Below are positions 49,797 to 55,563 of a stretch of DNA of 64,000 bases, piece by piece (positions within the stretch are counted from its first letter, which is position 1; each line of letters opens with the position of its first letter). Source of the stretch: Fibrobacter sp. UWB2 (lineage in GTDB: Bacteria > Fibrobacterota > Fibrobacteria > Fibrobacterales > Fibrobacteraceae); contig NZ_MWQK01000006.1 of assembly GCF_002210425.1 (NCBI RefSeq), forward strand, positions 124,001 to 188,000, given 5' to 3'. The translations under genes and the position numbers were made by a program. The notes beneath the pieces are model-generated. The model saw only the letters and a program-made list of their open reading frames with translations. It searched no databases and had not been told where the DNA came from.

Positions 49797-50324
49797 ATGA
49801 AGAAGCAAGGTTTTACCCTTATTGAATTGATGGTCGTGATCGTTATCATGGGCATCCTCGCCGCCGTCGCAGTTCCGAAACTGTTCGGTATGATTGCTAA
49901 GTCCAAGGCCTCTGAAGTCGGTCCGGCAGCCGGAACCTACGTGAAGTTGCAGGATGCTTATGCCGCAGAATCCAACCAGCTTGGTACATGGGCTCTTATC
50001 GGCTATACAGCTCCGGGTACAAAGAACTCGGATGGAACATTCGAATCCACCGTGTATAAGTATTCTGGAGCAATGACTGGTGCAGTCGCTCTTAAAGAAA
50101 CGGGTGCAACCGCACAGGCAAAAGCATGGTTAGCCGTTGCTCAAGTCGCCTTGAACGATTGTAAAAAAGACTCGGAATGGAGAATTGCTGTTACCGGTGC
50201 AACAACTGGCGTGACTTATGAAAACACTTATTCTGATCAGCCCAACTGCGAAGCTTTGACTCCGAACTTCAAGAACATCGGTACCAAGGCTTCTACCTCC
50301 ACCACAACCGGTGGCAATGGCTAA
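49797..50324 (+). CDS. Type IV pilin, complete (expressed) gene
   Basis: A 175-residue prepilin. The leader MKKQG precedes Phe6, the methylated residue after peptidase cleavage, and Glu at mature position 5 (FTLIE) is present. The hydrophobic helix LMVVIVIMGILAAVAV follows. Residues 44-58 form the conserved block AAGTYVKLQDAYAAE, after which the sequence is variable. Two Cys (122 in LNDC and 151 in NCEALTP) are likely to form a C-terminal disulfide, and the tail is Thr/Ser/Gly-rich. A strong promoter, control region and AAGGAG point to high expression. The DNA encoding its conserved block recurs at the 5' ends of the two cassettes at 52443 and 53657. Confidence 0.95.
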   Translation: MKKQGFTLIELMVVIVIMGILAAVAVPKLFGMIAKSKASEVGPAAGTYVKLQDAYAAESNQLGTWALIGYTAPGTKNSDGTFESTVYKYSGAMTGAVALKETGATAQAKAWLAVAQVALNDCKKDSEWRIAVTGATTGVTYENTYSDQPNCEALTPNFKNIGTKASTSTTTGGNG

Positions 50325-50351
50325 TTCGTAATTCCATTACAATTAAAGCTT

Positions 50352-50386
50352 AAAAAGAGAACTCCAACCGGGGTTCTCTTTTTTTG
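50352..50386 (+). terminator. Pilin gene terminator (repeated at cassette 2 and at 55529)
   Basis: AGAGAACTCC-AACC-GGGGTTCTCT followed by seven T. With its upstream flank (GTAATTCCAT.AC) it is repeated, inverted, after the cassette at 53657. Confidence 0.88.
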
Positions 50387-50520
50387 TAGACAACGAAGAG
50401 AATAACTTGAATTCAGATATTTAATGGCGTTAGTCGAATTAGTGTTACGACATACTTTCTTATGAAAAAGACTCAGACATCAACCTTACAAGTAAATCAT
50501 CTGATTAAAGCAGTATGCTC

Positions 50521-51498
50521 TCAAACCGTAGATTTCATGGCTATGACATAAAGCAGTTCCTTTAAATCATCACCCCAAATTATTTTGACATTTTTACTTG
50601 CCGCATATCGCTCAAAGTTGGAATTCAGCTGCTTTTTGCAGCCTGTAAGAACGACCCACTTTTCAAGCAACATATTCTGACCATTATTCCATTCATCAAA
50701 GGAATCAGCCTTTGAAACCTGATCAATCGGTCCATAACCAACAACATTGTTATAATCTTTAACCTGTATCGCTATGATATAATAGGATTCATCGTAAGTG
50801 AGCGGCGACGGAATTTTAATAATGATGTCCGCTCCATGTTCCTTTTCTATTTTGCCTCCCACTCGTTCAACCTTATAATGGGGGTACAATCTCCGTAAGC
50901 CATGGACTAAAACAAATTCCCATTCCGATTCTGAAAACTGAGAATACATTTTATCATAAAGGATTCTTTTGAAAGTCTCTGCAAAAGCGTCAAAAACAGA
51001 CTCTTCTACTTCCTCATACCGATTGATATAGTCCTTGACCTCTAGCAAGGACGCCCTTGGTGCAGCAATCAACTGTTCAATGATTTCCGCAAAATCATCA
51101 AGGCCCCAAAATCGCATGGGTGTACGAAGTGATGCCTTAAGCTTGCCGACAAGTGAATTGTGGCGGCGAAACTCCGTAACATATTCAGCAGGAAATATGT
51201 GACCAAAATCTTTCAAGGTCGGATCTATTTCAAACCGATAGCCAGTTGCAAAATCTTGCGTAGCACGGACAACCGCAACAGTATCTGGAGAACAAAGGCT
51301 GGGGACAAGAAGAATGTCCCCCTGTTTAACCTTAAACATACTCCTATTACGAGATGCTCCTTCATTTACAGTCATATTTCTTAAATCTTGCCCTGGGTCA
51401 TACCCCCAACCTTGACGAAGATGTTTATGTTCCAACAATTCTTTTTTGAAGAATTCTCTTTGTGAAGTATTTATTCTATAACCATAATAATGTGTCAT
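50521..51498 (-). CDS. Mrr-like restriction endonuclease with N-terminal PUA-like domain
   Basis: A 325-residue protein. The N-terminal ~115 residues look like a PUA/EVE-type base-reading barrel (KQGDILLVPSLCSPDTVAVVRAT). The C-terminal half has an Mrr-like PD-(D/E)xK core: Glu in EWEFVLVHGLRRLYPHY, Asp224 in HGADIIIKI and the QxK variant Q245-V-K247 in IIAIQVKDY. Such reader-plus-Mrr fusions are type IV restriction enzymes that cut modified foreign DNA; I infer this role. No methyltransferase accompanies it, which fits type IV. AGAGG precedes ATG 51498. It lies between the expressed pilin gene and the silent cassettes. Confidence 0.78.
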   Translation of the reverse strand: MTHYYGYRINTSQREFFKKELLEHKHLRQGWGYDPGQDLRNMTVNEGASRNRSMFKVKQGDILLVPSLCSPDTVAVVRATQDFATGYRFEIDPTLKDFGHIFPAEYVTEFRRHNSLVGKLKASLRTPMRFWGLDDFAEIIEQLIAAPRASLLEVKDYINRYEEVEESVFDAFAETFKRILYDKMYSQFSESEWEFVLVHGLRRLYPHYKVERVGGKIEKEHGADIIIKIPSPLTYDESYYIIAIQVKDYNNVVGYGPIDQVSKADSFDEWNNGQNMLLEKWVVLTGCKKQLNSNFERYAASKNVKIIWGDDLKELLYVIAMKSTV

Positions 51499-51577
51499 AA
51501 AACCTCTTTTTTTAAGTTGAATGCTCTTTTTCTGAACAATTGAGCGCGAAGAAAATTCCGCCTGAACATATTGTTCT

Positions 51578-51604
51578 CCCCCCCCCCAAAAAAAAATTGG
51601 GGGG
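51578..51604. repeat. Homopolymer tract C10-A9-TT-G6
   Basis: Ten C, nine A, TT and six G in a row, in the gap between the nuclease gene and the small PUA-like gene (both minus strand). A G8 run lies at 52299-52306. Such tracts are prone to slippage. Confidence 0.85.
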
Positions 51605-51683
51605 AAACTAGAAACGGAACGCTTTAAACAAGAGTCGATGGCTATATTATCGGCTCTTGCTCATTTGGGAAAGTACTGATGGG

Positions 51684-52100
51684 TTATTTACGGTCGAAAC
51701 GCGCTATTTTATCCAAAATAGCTTTTTGAACTTGTTCATGGAACTCTATGTAAAGAGCGCATCCTCGTACGCAGTCCATTTTATCATCTAAACGTCCGAA
51801 CCACAACCATTCTGAAGCATTTTTGGCGGCGAAAAGCCATTTTACTTCGCGAGCTGTACCAAGATCGTTTTCAACAAGCTTATCAGATTTCACAATGCCA
51901 ATAGCCTTGATGTAAAGACCAGCTCTGGGAGAAAAGCTCTTGATAAAGACTATACTACCAACAGAAATTGTCGATAGCATTTGATGATAACTAGGTGATT
52001 GCTGCTTATTCCAGCCAATATAAGCTAGCCCTTGATGAATAAAGGATTCCGTGTTGTTTACGGTTCCATTATCATAAAAAGCGCCAAATCCATAAAACAT
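51684..52100 (-). CDS. Small PUA/EVE-like protein
   Basis: A 138-residue soluble protein. The block VGSIVFIKSFSPRAGLYIKAIGIVKSD has the strand pattern of PUA-like domains such as EVE and of the reader region in the neighbouring nuclease. Aromatic residues (YGFGAFYDNG, WLWFGRLDD) could form a base-binding cage. AGGAGG precedes ATG. No catalytic motif is present. I infer a nucleic-acid or modified-base binding role, perhaps with the neighbouring nuclease; the family is not certain. Confidence 0.65.
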   Translation of the reverse strand: MFYGFGAFYDNGTVNNTESFIHQGLAYIGWNKQQSPSYHQMLSTISVGSIVFIKSFSPRAGLYIKAIGIVKSDKLVENDLGTAREVKWLFAAKNASEWLWFGRLDDKMDCVRGCALYIEFHEQVQKAILDKIARFDRK

Positions 52101-52442
52101 AAGAACCTCCTATTGCTTTGTTCATTGTCGGCTATTAAGCACGTCTACTTGCATAGTTTTGCTCAAATAATAGGGAGCGATTAGAAAATGCAAAGTATAG
52201 TTTCAACAACCTTTACTAGCAATAATAGCAAAAACAAATCCACTTTGCAAGGTTGTTTTTATTCTTTTACGTAGCATTTCTGAAATTATTTTCTAGGAGG
52301 GGGGGGAACAGTCCAATTTTGAGCCCTTTTATTGAATTTTGTCGGGATAGCGACTAGGAAAATGAGCGTTCTGTCGAATAAAGCGACTAAAAAAAAGACC
52401 TTCCCGTGGGGGAAGGCCTAAAAGCTTTTAGCGGTTTGCTAA
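52101..52442. other. Gene-free gap with G8 tract and cassette 1 terminator
   Basis: These 342 bases contain the upstream region of the small PUA-like gene, a run of eight G at 52299-52306 and, on the minus strand, the hairpin CCTTCCC..GGGAAGG with eight T (52393-52421) that follows cassette 1. Confidence 0.6.
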
Positions 52443-52803
52443 TTACTTACCGATCTTATCGAAAGACGGGGTAAGTTGAGAACAATTAGCAGCAACTGCA
52501 GCGGTATAAGTCACGCTATTGCCGTTTGTTGCTGCTGCGGTTGTAACCGTCCACACGTTGTCATTTGCGACAGCGCAATCGTTTAAAGCGACTCTATTCT
52601 TAGCTTGCCATGTAATCGCATTGAATTCGGCAATATCTACTGCAGCTGCAGTGAGTGCCAAAGTTTCACCTGCGGTATAGTCAAAGTTAGTGGTTTGACC
52701 GGCTGTAGATGCGCTCGTGGAACCCGGAGCAACATAGCCGATAAGCTTCCAAGAACCGACCTTATTAGCTTCAGACACATATGCATCCTGCAACTTCACG
52801 TAG
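52443..52803 (-). pseudogene. Silent pilin cassette 1 (no start, leader or N-terminal helix)
   Basis: The minus strand encodes 118 residues homologous to the variable part of the pilin at 49797, beginning YVKLQDAYVSE. Its first 21 bases, starting CTACGTGAAG, are identical to bases 49937-49957 of the expressed gene. Upstream there is no leader peptide or hydrophobic helix, and the frame hits a stop 17 codons back. The two Cys are kept (LNDC and NCSQLTP), as is the end LTPSFDKIG. GTG 52799 has no ribosome site. It has its own hairpin terminator. Best explained as a donor cassette; a decayed pilin gene is the alternative. Confidence 0.82.
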
Positions 52804-52861
52804 TATCTAATGATTTTTCCCTGTTTTTTCGCGAAAAAAGGGCCTTTTTAACAGACGATTA

Positions 52862-52890
52862 TTGACTTAAACGAATCTTTTTTTTATATT
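52862..52890 (+). promoter_or_regulatory. Promoter of the AbrB/PIN pair
   Basis: TTGACT (52862-52867), 17-bp spacer, TATATT (52885-52890), then a palindrome at the expected transcription start. Confidence 0.78.
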
Positions 52891-52894
52891 AAAA

Positions 52895-52909
52895 GTAAGA
52901 AAGTCTTAC
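52895..52909. promoter_or_regulatory. Probable antitoxin operator
   Basis: GTAAGA-AAG-TCTTAC is a perfect palindrome just downstream of the -10 element. AbrB-type antitoxins commonly repress their own operon from such sites. Confidence 0.65.
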
Positions 52910-52918
52910 GGAGGCTCT

Positions 52919-53173
52919 ATGGAAACCTTGGAAATCACAAGTCTCTCAACAAAGGGACAAGTTGTCATTCCTAGAAACATTCGAAATCAATTGAATCTAG
53001 ATATCGGGGATAAGTTGATTGTCGTTTGCGATGGCTCGAACATCTTGCTCAAGCCGGTTCTCAAGCCTAGTATGTCCGAATTCAAGTCTCTTATTGAAGA
53101 AACTGACAAAATAGCAAAGGATCTTGCAACGACGCCTGAAATGTTGAGCACATTCATCAAGGATAATCGATGA
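52919..53173 (+). CDS. AbrB/MazE-type antitoxin
   Basis: An 84-residue protein with an N-terminal SpoVT-AbrB swapped-hairpin domain (TSLSTKGQVVIPRNIRNQLNL, then GDKLIVVCDGSNILLKP). The C-terminal ~35 residues are helical and would wrap the toxin. GGAGG precedes ATG. Its last four bases overlap the PIN gene (ATGA), the usual antitoxin-first order. Confidence 0.9.
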   Translation: METLEITSLSTKGQVVIPRNIRNQLNLDIGDKLIVVCDGSNILLKPVLKPSMSEFKSLIEETDKIAKDLATTPEMLSTFIKDNR

Positions 53174-53586
53174 ATGTTGTTATCGACACGAATGTTCTCA
53201 TTTCAGGTATTTTTTGGAATGGATCACCGCGAAAGTTTTTATCGCTCGTTTTTCGACAGGATATAAAGCCGTATGCAACAATAGACATGATGGCGGAATA
53301 TTGCCGTATCATAGACAAAATTGCAAAAAAGCGCCCTGACATCGCCGCAAAATGGAAAAGCCAAATTGCAAAGGTGATGACCATTATCGAAAAAAGTGAA
53401 ACGGTCGACATATGCAGGGATCCCAAGGACAATATGTTTTTGGAATGTGCTATTGCGGCAAGCGCTTACTATTTGGTAAGTGGTGATTCAGATTTACTAG
53501 TATTAAGGGAATTCAAGAAGATTCCAATCGTTACAGTAAATCAATTTTTTGATGCGCACCCAGAATACGAAGTGACTGAAGCTTAA
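53170..53586 (+). CDS. PIN-domain toxin
   Basis: A 138-residue predicted Mg-dependent ribonuclease of the TIGR00305-like toxin family. Acidic residues are in place: VVIDTNVLISG at the start, CRDPKDNMFLECA in the middle and SGDSDLLVL near the end. It is coupled to the AbrB antitoxin gene. It lies between the two silent pilin cassettes, and may stabilise this region against loss (inference). Confidence 0.9.
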   Translation: MNVVIDTNVLISGIFWNGSPRKFLSLVFRQDIKPYATIDMMAEYCRIIDKIAKKRPDIAAKWKSQIAKVMTIIEKSETVDICRDPKDNMFLECAIAASAYYLVSGDSDLLVLREFKKIPIVTVNQFFDAHPEYEVTEA

Positions 53587-53602
53587 TGAATGATTAACTA
53601 TA

Positions 53603-53638
53603 CAAAAAAAGAGAACCCCGGTTGGAGCTCTCTTTTTA
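53603..53638 (-). terminator. Cassette 2 terminator, copy of the pilin terminator
   Basis: Minus strand: AAAAAGAGAGCTCC-AACC-GGGGTTCTCTTTTTTTGTA, one mismatch to 50352-50386. The AbrB/PIN operon converges on it. Confidence 0.85.
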
Positions 53639-53656
53639 AGTTCGTTCGTTATGGAA

Positions 53657-54023
53657 TTACGTGCCGGAATTATTGCCAATTGCAGTAAAGCTAGGAGTCA
53701 GAGTGCCGCAAGCACCAGTAGCTCCGTCAGGGGTTGCTGCAACATGTGTAAGGGTTCCCGATGTAGCTGTGTTTTCTGCACCTGTTTTAGTGGTTGTGAC
53801 AGTCCAGCTTTGACCTGATGCGCAATCATTCATCTTACCATTGGATGTTGCAGTCCAAACTTCGCTAGTACTTGCTGTGAGCACTTCTGTATAAGTGAAT
53901 GTATTTGTCACCCAACCGGCATCACCCTTCTTTCCAGGAGGAACATAACCAATTGCGGCGAAGTTGCCGATTTCTTCCTTTTCCGCAGCATACGCATCCG
54001 CCAACTTCACGTAGGTTCCGGCT
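53657..54023 (-). pseudogene. Silent pilin cassette 2 (no start, leader or N-terminal helix)
   Basis: The minus strand encodes AGTYVKLADAYAAE and about 110 further residues homologous to the expressed pilin's variable region. Its 5' edge shares a 22-base identical block with 49928-49949, starting AGCCGGAACC. Its 3' edge shares GTAATTCCAT.AC and then the whole terminator with the expressed gene. The two Cys (MNDC and ACGTLTP) and the end LTPSFTAIG are retained. No leader, hydrophobic helix, promoter or ribosome site is present. Homology at both edges makes it a well-formed donor for gene conversion into 49797. Confidence 0.85.
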
Positions 54024-54649: not shown

Positions 54650-55177
54650 ATGCATAGCAAATCGTTGCTGGGGAGCGCGATGAAAAAGCAAGGATTCACT
54701 CTTGTCGAGTTGATGGTTGTGATTGTAATCATAAGCATCCTCAGTACTGTTGCCGTTCCAAAGCTGTTCGGCATGATTGCCAAGTCGAAGGCTTCCGAGC
54801 TTAGCCCTGCGGCCAAGACCTACATTAAACTGCAAAACTCCTACATAGGCGAGAGGCATATGCTAGGCTCCTGGGCTGTCATTGGGTACATCAGCCCTGG
54901 CACAAGGGTATCGGCGGACTCCTCTGTAACCACTAACTTTTGTTATGGAAGTGGTGATATAAGGGGGAATGGTGCCGACGCTTCTGTCGCTATTGAGGCG
55001 AATTCCGTTACTGTTGGCTGGGTTGCGACAAGCCGGGTTGCACTGAACGATGTTCCCAAGAACTCATCCTGGACGGTTTCTATCGCGGTTGACAACGCAG
55101 GCGTGTTCCGGTACACGGCGACAGTTCCGACGGATGGTGAAGTTCTAACTCCGACATTTACCCAGATAGTGCATTGA
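54650..55177 (+). CDS. Second complete type IV pilin, divergent
   Basis: A prepilin of 175 residues from ATG 54650, or 165 from ATG 54680. The pilin core is MKKQGFTLVELMVV with Gly-Phe cleavage site and Glu at mature position 5, then VPKLFGMIAKSKASE as in the pilin at 49797. ATG 54650 has AAGGA six bases upstream and gives a 15-residue leader; ATG 54680 gives the usual short leader and has GGGAG four bases upstream. The variable region aligns at IGYISPGT, SRVALND and VLTPTFTQI, but both Cys found in the other copies are replaced. No strong promoter is visible. It may be a minor pilin or a decaying copy. Confidence 0.85.
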   Translation: MHSKSLLGSAMKKQGFTLVELMVVIVIISILSTVAVPKLFGMIAKSKASELSPAAKTYIKLQNSYIGERHMLGSWAVIGYISPGTRVSADSSVTTNFCYGSGDIRGNGADASVAIEANSVTVGWVATSRVALNDVPKNSSWTVSIAVDNAGVFRYTATVPTDGEVLTPTFTQIVH

Positions 55178-55528: not shown

Positions 55529-55563
55529 AAAAAAAGGAGAACCCCAATTGGAGTTCTCTTTTT
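55529..55563 (-). terminator. GH3 terminator, third copy of the pilin-type terminator
   Basis: Minus strand AAAAAGAGAACTCC-AATT-GGGGTTCTCCTTTTTTT, three differences from the pilin terminator. It serves the GH3 gene and marks the right edge of the island. Confidence 0.8.

Follow-up and report, generated by a model that had tools for sequence, protein, structure and literature searches.

Several systems that vary pili by DNA rearrangement have been described. The Moraxella enzyme Piv is of the DEDD/IS110 type and acts on one two-ended segment. In the R64/IncI shufflon (PilV, Rci, sfx), a constant pilin N-terminus is combined with variable C-terminal parts and the recombinase gene lies beside the array; sfx is a short asymmetric junction site, in which core and right arm are conserved and the left arm varies, cassettes occur in both orientations, and such regions are hard to assemble (PMC11852207, PMC5430464).

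In Fibrobacter succinogenes, pilins have been implicated in cellulose adhesion (PMC3079729, PMC4668043), and a type IV pilin was reported to be absent in cellulolysis-deficient mutants (PMC6851124). The literature searched contains no description of a shufflon or of pilin gene conversion in Fibrobacter, and inversion and recombinases go unmentioned in the main text of the S85 genome paper.

Here, we analysed a pilin locus in a stretch of 64,000 nucleotides (the window), assigned to Fibrobacter, a fibre digester of the rumen, by the names of its closest matches. Judging from sequence comparisons, the variable domain of a pilin is very probably exchanged at this locus by a shufflon-like inversion system on the chromosome.

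Anatomy of the pilin locus

The expressed gene encodes a type IV pilin, the N-terminal 46 aa of which show almost no variation across 27 relatives, and is accompanied by two silent cassettes on the opposite strand (Table 1). As originally predicted, these are headless pilin cassettes homologous to the expressed pilin; a Pfam N_methyl match is absent from cassette 1. A plasmid search with the pilin as query gave no match.

Table 1. Features of the pilin locus, with positions in the window
Feature	Position	Strand	Remarks
Expressed type IV pilin gene	49797..50324	+	175 aa, N-terminal methylation motif; PF07963 N_methyl E=8.8e-10
Constant part of the pilin gene	49797-49937	+	
Variable part of the pilin gene	49938-50324	+	
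Putative recombination site, 19 bp	49934..49952	+	AACC followed by TACGTGAAGTTGCAG; constant/variable junction; logo of 79 cassettes
Candidate recombinase site sequence			AACCTACGTGAAGTTGCAGGATGC
Intrinsic terminator that moves together with the expressed variable part	50349..50388	+	39/40 identical to 53601-53640
Silent cassette 1, headless pilin variable domain	52443..52806	-	~119 codons
Cassette 1 site	52788-52806		
Cassette 1 terminator	~52391-52419		own terminator
Silent cassette 2, headless pilin variable domain	53657..54017	-	118 codons
Cassette 2 site	53999-54017		TACGTGAAGTTGGCG
Cassette 2 terminator	53601..53640	-	common to expressed gene
Predicted invertible segment 1	49938..52802		expressed site x cassette 1 site, inverted; predicted by in silico inversion
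Predicted invertible segment 2	49938..54013		expressed site x cassette 2 site, inverted; predicted by in silico inversion

Flipping predicted segment 1 in silico yields a complete in-frame pilin of 166 aa, and flipping segment 2 one of 165 aa. According to the mechanism that we propose, one pilin gene would hold the constant N-terminal part and, at the constant/variable junction, a 19 bp recombination site, with spare variable parts nearby, each possessing the same 5' site and its own terminator and most of them being inverted. A dedicated tyrosine recombinase, encoded elsewhere in this genome and often beside the outermost cassette in relatives, would then act on the expressed site and one of the inverted cassette sites, recombining them, and the DNA between the sites would flip, so that a new variable domain, together with its terminator, is joined in frame to the constant N-terminus. 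Such inversion would be expected also in the strain of the window.

Further genes lie within or next to this region. A MazE-type antitoxin and PIN-domain toxin pair is located between both cassettes (52919-53586), and DUF3990, DUF3791 and HipA-like genes are repeatedly found within the cassette arrays of relatives; therefore, the arrays may gather toxin-antitoxin-like cargo. The predicted invertible segment also holds a small orphan ORF (51684-52100) with long homopolymer tracts on either side, i.e. C10 then A9 at 51580-51600 and G8 at 52296-52308, which are possibly slippage tracts or insertion residues. A second full-length pilin gene (54680-55177), conserved in a relative (L086), lacks the site block and, as far as seen, stands outside the switch.

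A conserved block at the constant/variable junction

The sequences shared at the 5' edge were confirmed by repeat search: positions 49928-49970 pair with the reverse complement of 53981-54023 over 43 nt (88 %), the first 22 bases being identical in cassette 2 (AGCCGGAACCTACGTGAAGTTG), as the original prediction had stated, and cassette 1 and the expressed gene have 21 identical bases in common at this edge (CTACGTGAAGTTGCAGGATGC), cassette 1 being followed by a different terminator. Within the 3.53 Mb genome, exact copies of TACGTGAAGTTGCAG are limited to the expressed gene and cassette 1, and cassette 2 carries a form of it with two mismatches (whole-genome search). Since this block and the terminator sequence CTTAAAAAGAGNNCTCCAAYCGGGG are so restricted in the genome, the shared edges are not due to chance.

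The block extends well beyond the window. Searching genomes of the same genus with the pilin gave many matches starting at query residue 42-48, and profile analysis of the loci showed these to be headless cassettes that all open at one codon (TYVKLQDAY), with unrelated DNA upstream. In the non-redundant set covering Fibrobacter and its family, 79 such cassettes were found in 31 genomes; aligned at their edges, they reveal a conserved block that spans -4 to +15, i.e. AWCC followed by TACGTGAAGTTGCAG. Third codon positions hardly vary as far as +15 (1.3-2.0 bits), and most of those past it approach randomness; therefore, conservation acts at the DNA level and not at the protein level, in line with the original view that the shared edges reflect DNA-level exchange instead of protein selection. 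Moreover, variant blocks tend to agree between the expressed gene and the cassettes of the same genome (mean distance 0.61 vs 1.82 when shuffled, p=1e-4). The 5' block behaves like a target of site-specific recombination, tracking with a tyrosine recombinase, having inverted outermost copies and bounding an invertible contig (see below). Upstream of it, the 79 sites show a weak A/T-rich patch at -15 to -12 and a C at -8 (relative to the TAC codon), which could together represent a degenerate left recombinase arm.

The arrays themselves vary in layout. Other genes intervene between cassettes in many of them, so that tail-to-tail pairing as the sole layout was rejected. At L248 3321-16954 (G115, a one-contig genome), a large array comprises nine cassettes and also encloses the recombinase gene, which makes it a suitable reference locus.

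One could regard the cassettes as inert remnants, i.e. decayed tandem pilin duplicates that have lost their 5' ends and do not switch, given that they have neither start nor signal region and that some (in L238 and L091) are broken. This is highly improbable, considering that an uninterrupted frame of 80 codons or more follows the site in 77 of the 79 cassettes, and that the truncation point is identical genus-wide. In addition, silent and expressed roles are swapped between species. The orthologue of cassette 2 is the expressed pilin variable region in L076/G077 (86 % DNA identity over 53605-54023, 91 % in the 5' flank), with the variant site of cassette 2 at the L076 expression site, while the variant expressed in the window is a silent cassette in L041/G004; in both swaps, homology is limited to the stretch from site to terminator. 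The dN/dS of 0.27 between cassette 2 and its expressed orthologue likewise speaks against decay, and suggests that the silent copy is kept functional.

At the 3' edge, GTAATTCCATNAC and CTTAAAAAGAG agree with what had been stated before, and the terminators of the expressed gene and cassette 2 pair on opposite strands over 40 nt (98 %, repeat search). Dispersal of this terminator behind unrelated genes as the cause of the match was rejected, since CTTAAAAAGAGNNCTCCAAYCGGGG is found in the genome at these two places only, even allowing three mismatches; looser relatives are few, i.e. one at 55532-55553 (3 mismatches over 22 nt) and another on contig C2. The former is part of a third and less exact pilin terminator (55530-55563), flanked by an HTH gene and, on its other side, the end of an opposite-strand gene; this copy is perhaps the remnant of a lost cassette.

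The terminator type of the expressed gene also stands behind a silent cassette in L041. Across the arrays, hairpin terminators differ from cassette to cassette, each having its own, and several tail-to-tail pairs have one in common. Since the terminators of the cassettes differ, although they travel with them, a 3' terminator as universal second crossover site was rejected. Homology past the stop codon ends just after the hairpin in four of five comparisons and fades shortly after it in the fifth (L100), which makes the terminator part of the exchanged unit and sets it apart from a universal anchor such as the 3' repeat of Neisseria. The original interpretation of the 3' flank as such a conserved anchor is therefore probably wrong: across the genus only the 5' block is universal, the flank being common to only 13 of 67 same-locus pairs of expressed gene and cassette.

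Inversion geometry and the candidate recombinase

Lone cassettes are inverted relative to the expressed gene in all ten cases, and 26 of 30 arrays have an inverted outermost cassette. In three of the four exceptions the array runs into a contig end, and in the fourth (G072) a broken inverted copy lies farther out; in every uncut array the outermost cassette is inverted. This geometry favours inversion.

An assembly signature of inversion is present in one relative. In the near-complete genome G069, contig C7 (7908 bp) starts and ends exactly at inverted sites, and its ends are overlapped by 95 bp each, at one end by the contig of the pilin N-terminus and at the other by a flank contig, the upstream sequences of which share only AACC, where C7 starts. 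The assembly graph thus branches at the sites, as we infer would be expected if both orientations coexist and unexpected for a single unbranched path. Contigs ending in or beside a site were found in several other genomes.

A census of neighbouring gene families revealed a protein of ~278 aa repeatedly located beside cassettes, i.e. a tyrosine recombinase with PF00589 and PF13102 domains, the catalytic residues of which (R, K, HxxR, H, Y) are all intact. In linked arrays its gene is usually separated from the outermost cassette, at the 5' edge of the latter, by no more than ~100 bp. Exactly one copy exists in the genome of the window (G000:C4:361206-362036), which is intact and unlinked to the pilin locus. 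Among 151 genomes from the phylum, close homologues are confined to Fibrobacteraceae.

Of the near-complete genomes, 22 of 23 with the recombinase and 1 of 17 without it possess cassettes (Fisher p=4e-9), according to a table of 80 genus genomes with a partly hand-compiled cassette column, in which, as in all our counts and statistics, shared ancestry is left uncorrected. Likewise, 20 of 36 recombinase-bearing genomes have an exact edge block in the expressed gene, vs 2 of 23 without the recombinase (p=3e-4; Mann-Whitney 9e-5). It would be this enzyme that acts on the 19 bp site.

Some observations weigh against the shufflon reading. The recombinase is unlinked not only in the genome of the window but throughout its clade. 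The cassette 2 site is two positions off the expressed site, though the same variant occupies the expression site of L076. Furthermore, G009 and G041 have contigs ending in a site and no close recombinase, and apparent cassettes or extra sites without the recombinase occur in G093 and probably G018.

The original prediction had favoured gene conversion of the Neisseria type. In such a mechanism, silent sequence would be copied in a RecA-dependent manner by way of short end blocks in common, the donor remaining unchanged. Consistent with it are the two edges that cassette 2 has in common with the expressed gene, a pair of loci (L062/L068) differing mainly in the variable region with conserved flanks, and L091, where the expressed region and a cassette are 96 % identical from site to terminator and not beyond. 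However, the 3' edge is mostly not common to expressed gene and cassettes, and gene conversion predicts neither a sharp 19 bp edge nor a dedicated recombinase, an orientation bias or the inverted-contig signature. In view of the recombinase co-occurrence, the inverted outermost copies and the site-bounded contig of G069, this reading is probably wrong; as sole process gene conversion is unlikely, while it may contribute.

Nevertheless, pure inversion would not give the 96 % copy in L091 or the shared 3' flanks, which show copying. In L100, a tail-to-tail segment bounded by inverted sites was copied as a unit (846 bp, 96 %); together with L091, this indicates that copying of cassettes also happens, and some conversion or duplication may contribute alongside inversion. 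Both processes could be combined, the recombinase inverting and occasional homologous or intermolecular exchange duplicating and homogenizing cassettes, which would account for shared terminators. The evidence for inversion, the duplicated segments (L100, L248) and the shared flanks fit this reading; copying, however, may be a rare evolutionary duplication outside the switching mechanism. We consider it possible, at somewhat short of an even chance, an estimate that overlaps with that for the shufflon-like inversion system, of which it is a variant. Transcript-based copying, prompted by the sharp 3' ends at terminators, was dropped, as inversion accounts for the 5' edge and the gene families that the census showed to recur beside cassettes included no noticeable reverse transcriptase.

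Comparison with known systems

If true, the shufflon-like inversion system would be a heritable switch of the exposed part of the pilin, making clonal cultures mixtures. Studies of adhesion, as well as assemblies, could be confounded by this, and systems that vary pili would then extend to a case that is neither from a pathogen nor on a plasmid. The switch might alter adhesion or recognition properties of the pilus, and it is tempting to speculate that a cellulose-degrading commensal thereby gains a clonal pilus repertoire, perhaps for escape from phages or host antibodies or for binding of different plant fibres. The recombinase and site pair provides a specific candidate invertase.

Like the pilE/pilS loci of Neisseria, the Fibrobacter system comprises silent headless pilin cassettes beside one expressed pilin. 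In contrast to these, there is no conserved 3' repeat across cassettes, and a dedicated site-specific recombinase and strong inversion geometry are found. With Moraxella tfpQ/tfpI it would have in common that the pilin is chosen by inversion at a site within the pilin gene; unlike Piv, the enzyme is a tyrosine recombinase (PF00589), and up to nine cassettes are available.

The resemblance to R64 concerns the constant N-terminus with alternative C-terminal parts, each behind the same short junction site (asymmetric, its core and right arm being conserved and its left arm variable), the presence of cassettes in both orientations with the outermost site inverted, the difficult assembly of such regions, and the tyrosine recombinase beside the array in many relatives, albeit present and unlinked in the genome of the window. 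On the other hand, the Fibrobacter system is chromosomal and concerns an ordinary type IV pilin of 165-175 aa and not a PilV tip adhesin; it has its own site sequence, other genes between cassettes and a terminator for each cassette, and its PF13102 and PF00589 recombinase, sometimes unlinked, has close homologues only in Fibrobacteraceae. Membership of the PilV/Rci family by homology was rejected, as the pilins match only PF07963 and the best curated models of the recombinase (XerC, XerA and XerD) all score well below cut-off. The locus would therefore work like the R64 shufflon, yet includes no PilV or Rci family member by sequence. It is likely that a chromosomal shufflon exists across the Fibrobacteraceae, with an adhesion pilin, a lineage-specific recombinase workable from afar, a new 19 bp site and at most nine spare domains.
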